From: Halobacteriovorax sp. JY17
GTDB lineage: Bacteria; Bdellovibrionota; Bacteriovoracia; Bacteriovoracales; Bacteriovoracaceae
Length of the DNA: 64,000 nucleotides
Direction: 5' to 3'
Assembly (NCBI RefSeq): GCF_002753895.1
Contig: NZ_NJER01000001.1
Location: 1-64,000, forward strand
Shown here: positions 23,817 through 59,829 of the stretch, one piece after another
Layout of the letters: each line of letters opens with the position of its first letter
How positions within the stretch are numbered: position 1 is the first letter of the stretch
Program-made: the position numbers and the translations under genes
Notes under the pieces: generated by a model
Databases searched by the model: none
Told to the model about the DNA's origin: nothing
What the model saw: the letters and a program-made list of their open reading frames with translations, nothing else

Positions 23817-24146
23817 ATGTCAGAAGAAAAAGGATTAAAGAAGCCAGTTAAGTTAAAGTCTGATTTAGCAGCAATGCTAAGTGCAACAGAATTACCTAGA
23901 ACTGAAATCACTAAAAAACTTTGGGATTATATTAAAGAAAATAAGTTACAAACAAAAACTGAAAATGGTGCTCCTGAAAATGCAGGAAAGTACATTGTAG
24001 CTGATGCGACATTACTTCCAATTTTTAAGAATACAAAGTCTACTAGTAAGTCTGGAAAACTAACTGACCTTACAAGTATGAAAGAAGGTGAGACTATCAA
24101 CATGATGCAAATGGCAGCTGTTGTTGGTGCGAATATCGAAAAGTAA
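23817..24146 (+). CDS. SWIB/MDM2-domain protein
   Basis: This 109-residue protein is almost entirely a SWIB/MDM2 domain (about 20-105), recognised by MLSATELPRTEITKKLWDYI and the YIVADATLLPIF segment. SWIB domains are best known from eukaryotic chromatin-remodelling complexes and from a few bacteria such as chlamydiae, where a chromatin role is suspected. The short lysine-rich N-terminus (EEKGLKKPVKLK) could contact nucleic acid. The gene is single, with a Shine-Dalgarno (AAAGGA) before ATG and a strong terminator after. A histone-fold gene lies 3.3 kb away. Confidence 0.88.
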   Translation: MSEEKGLKKPVKLKSDLAAMLSATELPRTEITKKLWDYIKENKLQTKTENGAPENAGKYIVADATLLPIFKNTKSTSKSGKLTDLTSMKEGETINMMQMAAVVGANIEK

Positions 24147-27433: not shown

Positions 27434-27463
27434 TTGACGAAAACGGCTGACTAAAAATAAAAT
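27434..27463 (+). promoter_or_regulatory. Candidate sigma-70 type promoter of the histone gene
   Basis: TTGACG (27434-27439) and TAAAAT (27458-27463) are separated by 18 bp, ending 34 bp upstream of the ATG. The good match and the strong downstream terminator fit a highly expressed single gene. Confidence 0.55.
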
Positions 27464-27497
27464 AGTTTTTCAACTTAAACTTTACATGAGGTAAGAA

Positions 27498-27737
27498 ATG
27501 GCAAAGAAGAAAGCTGCTAAAAAAGCTGCACCAAAGAAGAAAACAACAGCAAAGAAAAAAGACATGCTCCTAGTAGGTTCTAAGACTAAGGAAGCTTTAA
27601 AAGGAAAAGGGTACAATGTATCTTCTGATACTTTAGAGGCCATGAATGAGTATGTTTACTGGCTAATTGATCAGGCCCAGAAGAAGTGTACTGCCAATGG
27701 TAGAAAAACAATTAGACCTTACGACATTCTAGCGTAA
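27498..27737 (+). CDS. Bacterial histone-fold protein with a lysine-rich N-terminal tail
   Basis: This 79-residue protein has two parts. Residues 1-21 form a tail with 11 lysines plus Ala, Thr and Pro, resembling histone H1 tails. Residues about 26-79 match a minimal histone fold: helix 1 (SKTKEALKGKG), a long helix 2 (SSDTLEAMNEYVYWLIDQAQ) and GRKTIRPYDIL, which keeps the Arg-x-Thr and Asp spacing of histone H4 (RKTVTAMD). Helix 3 is nearly absent. Bdellovibrio bacteriovorus has a related nucleoid histone (Bd0055), so DNA coating or packaging is the expected role. Flanked by a strong promoter and a 12-bp-stem terminator, it is probably abundant. GAGG lies before the ATG. Confidence 0.88.
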   Translation: MAKKKAAKKAAPKKKTTAKKKDMLLVGSKTKEALKGKGYNVSSDTLEAMNEYVYWLIDQAQKKCTANGRKTIRPYDILA

Positions 27738-27746
27738 ATATCATAC

Positions 27747-27783
27747 TTTATGGAAGTAGCAATACTTCCATAAAACTTCTTTT
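27747..27783 (+). terminator. Strong rho-independent terminator after the histone gene
   Basis: A perfect 12-bp stem (TTTATGGAAGTA with TACTTCCATAAA) and a GCAA tetraloop end at 27774, followed by a T-rich stretch (ACTTCTTTT). It starts 9 bp after the histone stop. Confidence 0.85.
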
Positions 27784-58760: not shown

Positions 58761-59300
58761 ATGTTGAAGAAATGGAAAACGAATAATTATCAGCACATTC
58801 TAAAAACTTTCGTCTTTAACTACTTCAAGGCAGATAGGGAGAACTCTACAGGTGAATTAAAGGGTTCTTTCGATATTCTTGAGTGTCGTAACTGGGTCAA
58901 TGTCTTTGCTTTCAATGAAAGAGACGAACTTATTCTAGTTAAGCAGTATAGGCATGGAATTGACGATCTAACTCTTGAAACGGTTGCAGGTGTTATTGAA
59001 TCTAGCGAAGAGCCTTTGACCGCAGCAAAGAGAGAGTTACTGGAAGAGACTGGTCACTGCTCAGATGAGTGGAGCGAACTTGGGAGAGTTTCCGCTAATC
59101 CGGCCTTCATGAATAATTACTGTCACTACTTTGTTGCTAGAAATTGTAGGGAAGTGTCAGCTCAAGATCTAGATCCTTTAGAAGAGATTGAAGTCTTGAA
59201 AATTTCAATGAATGAGGTTGAAGATAAAATAAGAAGTGGTGAAATTCACCACTCCCTCTTTTTGGCCGGAATAGGCCTTCTTAAGAATTCTTTACCGTAG
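58761..59300 (+). CDS. NUDIX hydrolase, ADP-ribose pyrophosphatase-like
   Basis: This 179-residue enzyme has a full Nudix box at residues 77-98 (Gly77, Glu83, Arg91-Glu92, Glu95-Glu96, Gly98). The N-terminal strand region and YRHGIDDLTLETVAGV match the ADP-ribose/GDP-mannose hydrolase group. It cleaves nucleoside diphosphates linked to another group. It is the last gene of the 55492-59300 operon and overlaps the convergent NYN gene by 20 bp. Confidence 0.92.
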   Translation: MLKKWKTNNYQHILKTFVFNYFKADRENSTGELKGSFDILECRNWVNVFAFNERDELILVKQYRHGIDDLTLETVAGVIESSEEPLTAAKRELLEETGHCSDEWSELGRVSANPAFMNNYCHYFVARNCREVSAQDLDPLEEIEVLKISMNEVEDKIRSGEIHHSLFLAGIGLLKNSLP

Positions 59301-59829
59301 CTTTCTTCTTTGTCGATTTCTTTACGGTCGGCTTATTTGATCTCTTATTAGGAGACTTTAACGTAAACCAATCTTCACTTGTAATTGGGTGAAAATAATC
59401 CGCCTCTTCAATAAGTAGGTGATGGGTCGTTGACTCAATGGCCGCAATTTCAACTCTAACACCTTCAGATTTTAAGTGACTTACTAGTTCTATATAATCA
59501 GAGTCTCCAGACATGATTATAATGGTATCAACTTTCTGTGCTAATTGCGTTGCTTTAATCGAAAGTGGAATATCTGCACTCTTATGGCATGGTCTAACAG
59601 AACCATGGTATTTATCATGGAGTCTTTCGGCCAGCTTTGAAGAAATATTCTTTCCCTCTCTAAAATAGATAAGTCTATTAAGCCCTCTGTTAACTAAGAG
59701 TCTAGGTATTAGAGTATCAAAATTTAGCATTGTTGATTGTTTTGAAGATTCGGAATGAATACTTCTTTCAATGTTGTTACCATCAACTAGAATGGCAACA
59801 GATTGACTAATTTGAACTTCATTGTTCAT
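59281..59829 (-). CDS. NYN-domain (LabA/DUF88-like) protein with a basic tail
   Basis: This 182-residue protein has a NYN/PIN-like nuclease domain (about 8-150) with VAILVDGNNIE and IIIMSGDSDYIELV, holding the conserved acidic residues. NYN proteins are expected to cleave RNA. The tail (about 155-182) is rich in lysine and threonine (KKSTKKKATVK), likely for nucleic acid binding. The gene lies 20 bp after the large EF-hand-like lipoprotein gene on the same strand. Confidence 0.85.
   Translation of the reverse strand: MNNEVQISQSVAILVDGNNIERSIHSESSKQSTMLNFDTLIPRLLVNRGLNRLIYFREGKNISSKLAERLHDKYHGSVRPCHKSADIPLSIKATQLAQKVDTIIIMSGDSDYIELVSHLKSEGVRVEIAAIESTTHHLLIEEADYFHPITSEDWFTLKSPNKRSNKPTVKKSTKKKATVKNS

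Follow-up and report, generated by a model that had tools for sequence, protein, structure and literature searches.

A lysine-tailed histone of probable face-to-face type in the genome of Halobacteriovorax sp. JY17

The histone HLp of Leptospira perolatii is a DNA-wrapping, tetrameric face-to-face (FtF) histone that takes up about 60 bp of DNA; its published FtF contacts are R49, N53, and R55, and its RD clamp is the pair R55-D62 (PMC12701072). In a survey of bacterial histones the Bacteriovoracia were placed in the FtF group and the Bdellovibrionia in the dimer group, and for these FtF histones mostly positive, non-conserved N-terminal tails were already described as common (Schwab et al., 2024, PMC11390915). 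The histone analyzed here belongs to an already described bacterial type, and lysine-rich tails are common on such histones. A series of homologues with tails of 4-42 residues, together with the pattern of substitution at lysines and at spacers, is added to that description.

In this study, we analyzed a window of 64,000 nucleotides (contig 1, bases 1-64000) of the 3.47-Mb genome of Halobacteriovorax, a marine predator of the class Bacteriovoracia and not B. bacteriovorus. The features of the histone locus are collected in Table 1, and the product of the gene is MAKKKAAKKAAPKKKTTAKKKDMLLVGSKTKEALKGKGYNVSSDTLEAMNEYVYWLIDQAQKKCTANGRKTIRPYDILA. A preliminary description had read this gene as a bacterial histone with a basic tail, in which a minimal histone fold is joined to 21 residues containing 11 lysines; the open reading frame agrees with it exactly, and the predicted fold and the matches to HLp and to HBb of B. 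bacteriovorus bear it out. The open frame did not arise by chance, since homologues (65-91% identity) are found across the class and the cores of two congeners differ by 25 synonymous and 3 non-synonymous codon changes. At least one histone match was detected in 91 of 129 genomes, and the same histone is encoded in a second genome of the genus; no relative was found in the viral contigs searched. The Pfam models CBFD_NFYB_HMF and DUF1931 match the protein only below their cut-offs, and family models alone would therefore miss it. The neighbors of the gene are a small ORF in divergent orientation and, on the other side, a gene for a chemotaxis receptor. It is probably a single-gene transcription unit, judging from the GAGGT site with its ATG start and the terminator-like hairpin 3' of the gene.

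Table 1. Features of the histone locus (positions in the 64,000-nucleotide window)
Feature	Position	Strand	Evidence
Histone gene, 79 aa	27498..27737	+	ORF; PDB HLp match, E 2.1e-11; homologues across class
Lysine-rich N-terminal tail, residues 1-21 (11 K, net +11)	27498..27560	+	Sequence; disorder predicted (mean pLDDT 47-49, residues 1-20)
Histone-fold core, residues 22-79	27561..27734	+	AlphaFold helices 27-35, 43-66, 74-78; Foldseek 9qt0/9qt1 and 8fvx
FtF dimer-dimer contact positions K63, N67, R69 (HLp R49, N53, R55)	27684..27704	+	K/R, N, R in 89/89 relatives; HBb S, D, R
L2 loop and RD clamp GRKTIRPYD, residues 68-76	27699..27725	+	R69, K70, T71, D76 invariant in 89 relatives
Shine-Dalgarno-like GAGGT	27488..27492	+	Sequence; nearly all relatives have this or a similar site before the ATG of the tail
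Sigma-70-like promoter candidate TTGACG-18-TAAAAT	27434..27463	+	Weak, because 1 found against 1.7 expected by chance
Intrinsic-terminator-like hairpin, usable on other strand too	27747..27774	+	2 found against 0.2 expected

The structure was predicted with AlphaFold as a single chain, with 22 aligned proteins from the window and the loci as input. The model has the short alpha2 and the one-turn alpha3 of an FtF histone. HLp headed the Foldseek ranking (TM to target 0.89-0.90, rmsd 1.0-1.1, 45-46% identity), followed by HBb and then by the archaeal FtF histone HTkC. By sequence among PDB entries, HLp (9qt0) was the best match and HBb (8cmp) the next, at E 2.5e-4; VIA-align did not separate the two (Z 7.5 each). 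At the positions equivalent to HLp 49, 53, 55, and 62, the 89 relatives have R or K (64 R, 25 K), N, R, and D in every row, whereas HBb has S, D, R, and D. The motif GRKTIRPYD, pointed out in the preliminary description, is present and supplies both residues of the putative clamp, R69 and D76. Based on the rank of HLp and on these four positions, we file the window histone as FtF, the replacement of R49 by lysine being the one soft point; since that lysine is found here and in 25 of the 89 relatives, tetramer formation is not certain. The replacement would also suit a tailed histone like Bd0055/HBb, acting as a dimer to bend or coat DNA, and such a protein would have the same fold, the RKT motif, and the RD clamp, and would fit the VIA-align tie. 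However, HLp is preferred by sequence and by Foldseek, neither the invariant N53 nor the always basic position 49 holds for HBb, and the class falls in the FtF group of the survey, so that we regard a dimeric histone as unlikely. The comparison with Bd0055 suggested by the preliminary description thus holds for the fold and for the RKT/RD clamp; the type is nearer to HLp, Bd0055/HBb being without the FtF tetramer residues.

The reading that we prefer, with a probability of roughly three in four, is that of a nucleoid protein of the FtF type with a disordered, polycationic tail that contacts DNA. By homology to HLp, the core would form a handshake dimer, two dimers would associate into a ring-like tetramer, and DNA would wrap around the tetramer, as about 60 bp do in HLp. 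The four tails of the tetramer may lie along the wrapped or a neighboring duplex, where they would raise affinity and aid compaction or bridging; their charge would matter and their exact sequence would not.

The tail, MAKKKAAKKAAPKKKTTAKKK, has no acidic residue. At the local lysine frequency of 8.2%, the binomial chance of so many lysines is about 2e-7 per stretch, and the densest comparable stretch in the 56 other proteins of the window has 8 K. Model confidence over residues 1-20 is low, and the tail is presumably disordered. In the class, a histone of this family (family A) could be read in 45 genomes, and the tails range from 4 (MAKK) to 42 residues. A short FtF-like paralogue of the same class (family B, with the ending NGRKTV..DF) is nearly tail-less, and its N-terminal net charge is -1 to +2 in 21 of 22 cases. 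Genes for an M23 peptidase, a DMT-like protein, and RmuC follow the histone gene both in Halobacteriovorax, where the tail has 21 residues, and in three further genomes with tails of 28, 42, and 32 residues, which argues for orthology at one locus. Two closely related family A histones (loci L099 and L103) begin with METAREK and MENTSTNK and have no net charge there; they are useful tail-less controls. With 12 or more residues counted as long (one such tail, at L154, has a doubtful start and is probably not real), the long and short states require at least 11 changes on the core tree, which is poorly resolved with few resolved forks, against about 29 for shuffled labels. The 40 tails of at least 12 residues are on average 53% K+R and 96% K/R/A/T/P/S, and D or E occurs in none of them. 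Lysine tails were also found on histone relatives in Acidobacteriota and Krumholzibacteriota; in five GC-rich genomes of these phyla (loci 61-72% GC) 52-56% K+R is kept, mostly by AAG codons.

Substitutions were counted in three independent pairs of tails of equal length. Of the few lysine codons that had changed, 7 of 8 had done so synonymously, where by our estimate at most one third would be synonymous under neutrality (P for 7 or more of 8 then about 0.003); codon changes in spacers were 9 non-synonymous against 2 synonymous. Tail lysines are thus preserved and the A/T/S/P spacers drift. From these few codon changes, the charge of the tail appears to be under selection and its sequence does not. 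It has been proposed that lysine tails of Leptospira histones and of mycobacterial HupB arose from upstream starts (PMC10919886). Such an extension, the wide range of lengths, the frequent switching, and the AT-rich window (35% GC) would all suit a nearly neutral tail, in which an A-rich start region drifted to lysine codons or slipped repeats and functions only in translation initiation. The substitution pattern, the absence of acidic residues in all 40 long tails, and the retention of lysine through AAG in GC-rich genomes argue against near-neutrality; in addition, short members already start with MAKK or MSKK and do not differ from long ones in their kind of ribosome site, so that growth was probably inside the tail and not by new upstream starts. 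We consider a near-neutral tail quite improbable.

The tail might instead be a platform for modification, acetylated by a GNAT enzyme and deacetylated by a sirtuin or HDAC-like enzyme, with chromatin loosened or tightened between attack and growth phase. There is precedent in Streptomyces, where the HU protein HupS bears a lysine-rich domain and undergoes acetylation, which CobB1 reverses, with an approximately two-fold effect on DNA affinity (PMC11229371). The genome encodes one SIR2-family and two HDAC-family proteins, and a sirtuin is present in 25 of 29 long-tail genomes against 8 of 17 others (Fisher p 0.007, by genome); counted by genus, however, only a weak association is left (10/10 against 5/8, p 0.07), and control searches found sirtuins and HDAC-like proteins to be common in bacteria at large. 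The possible sirtuin start that the preliminary description placed at 1-59 was not borne out: the sole SIR2-family match of the genome lies outside the window (C1:300001-300522), and a six-frame reading of 1-240 gave no recognizable sirtuin, although the contig begins there and a very short fragment could not be named. The description had also called the tail eukaryote-like, which is apt only for its charge. It is not apt for its sequence, which is made up almost entirely of K/A/T/P, without an H3/H4 pattern and with freely varying length; similar repeats are, moreover, carried by other proteins of the same genome (see below). Eukaryotic tails have a conserved sequence with fixed modification sites; here close homologues vary in sequence and length, including the residues around the lysines, and keep only charge. 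Control of the tail by GNAT/sirtuin acetylation is a plausible guess, and we doubt strongly that the tail is a regulated platform of this kind. An electrostatic, sequence-loose, DNA-contacting tail fits better than a code of modification sites, because tails of 4-42 residues have switched state at least about 11 times and yet contain about 53% K+R and no acid, with lysines kept while spacers drift.

The pattern KKxxKKxxxKKK was found at eleven places in the genome, the histone among them. Topoisomerase I (Pfam Topoisom_bac, E 1.7e-93) has a 63-residue lysine-repeat N-terminus, and lysine-rich TopA N-termini of 22-85 residues were found in 29 of 45 genomes tested in the class. The TopA extension (L171; G000:C1:1679682-1680236 and upstream) is of a KKTAKKTAKK type that is missing from a second TopA lineage of the class. 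Another bearer of repeats, in its N-terminal part, we read by its sequence as IF-2. A protein of 136 aa (L165/L167, G000:C1:1599946-1600263) consists of K/A/V/T/P repeats throughout and has no Pfam match; it resembles a DNA condenser of the H1 or HC2 type. Two further KKxxKK-repeat proteins likewise have no Pfam match. Within the window, a putative RNase with an NYN domain (59281-59829, minus strand) has a lysine-rich C-terminus, KRSNKPTVKKSTKKKATVKNS. The histone tail itself has the make-up of a lysine-repeat domain (K-rich repeats, A/T/P/S spacers, and predicted disorder, on a protein whose DNA binding is predicted from homology). Histone and TopA tails coincide across the 45 genomes (24 with both, 12 with neither, 5 and 4 mixed; Fisher p 2.6e-4); a functional link was set aside, as the coincidence follows the two TopA lineages and is probably mostly shared ancestry, and it is broken in both directions by genera g14, g39 and g45, g20. 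That the tails of the FtF histone, topoisomerase I, and the pure repeat protein form a coordinated chromatin system in Halobacteriovorax and its relatives, jointly tuned and perhaps reversibly acetylated, which would keep the nucleoid compact in attack phase and release it while the cell grows in its prey, seems to us an improbable reading.

Three HU/IHF genes and a second histone are also present, so that the tailed histone is perhaps not the principal chromatin protein of the cell. The second histone is a protein of 154 aa (L048 573-1037; G000:C4:112572-113033) with a zinc-finger-like, Cys-rich N-terminus before its histone fold, and most genomes of the class have a relative of it, whether or not a long tail is present. 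A role of the tail as ligand of this (ZZ-type) zinc-finger histone was set aside, as the latter occurs irrespective of long tails; such a role has also been argued against by Schwab et al. (PMC11390915). Doublet histones of about 140 aa with two tandem folds (e.g., G104:C1:2292799-2293185) are common in those Bacteriovoracia genomes where the tailed family was not found. The window also encodes a stand-alone SWIB/MDM2-domain protein (23817-24146; PF02201, E 2.2e-15). Elsewhere, this domain is familiar mainly from chromatin remodelers of eukaryotes and from chlamydiae.

Histone cores in the Halobacteriovorax-like group are mostly 80-95% identical and differ in the length of their natural tails (4, 7, 21, and 42 residues); the class thereby offers a test of the effect of the tail that needs no newly designed protein. 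The lineage is an independent one with lysine-repeat tails on both a histone and topoisomerase I, in parallel to actinobacterial HupB and TopA, and it speaks against the view that such tails are left over from eukaryotic chromatin or led up to it. With eukaryotic H3 and H4 the protein has in common the histone fold, the RKT motif, and a basic, disordered N-terminal tail; no homology of the tails was seen, however, and the Halobacteriovorax tail is without G/R patterning and variable in length, on a shorter core. Bd0055/HBb (8FVX, 8CMP; PMC10627809, PMC11317129) has the histone fold, GRKT, and the RD clamp, but is about 32% identical to the window histone and is without the lysine tail, the basic residue 49, and N53. 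HLp (9QT0-9QT2; PMC12701072) is closer, with a core about 45% identical, the same truncated alpha3, N53, R55, and the RD clamp, and a short N-terminal extension before alpha1; the tail of the Halobacteriovorax histone is longer and far richer in lysine, R49 is K, and tetramer and wrapping have been demonstrated for HLp only. The bacterial FtF histones of the survey (Schwab et al., 2024, PMC11390915), among which Bacteriovoracia are named, have positively charged, non-conserved N-terminal tails like this one. Actinobacterial HupB, HupS, and TopA (PMC5676037, PMC11229371, PMC7398561) likewise have lysine repeats on DNA-binding proteins, with topoisomerase I a bearer in both lineages; however, their repeats are C-terminal and on HU and TopA, whereas those of Halobacteriovorax lie at the N-terminus of a protein with a true histone fold and of TopA.
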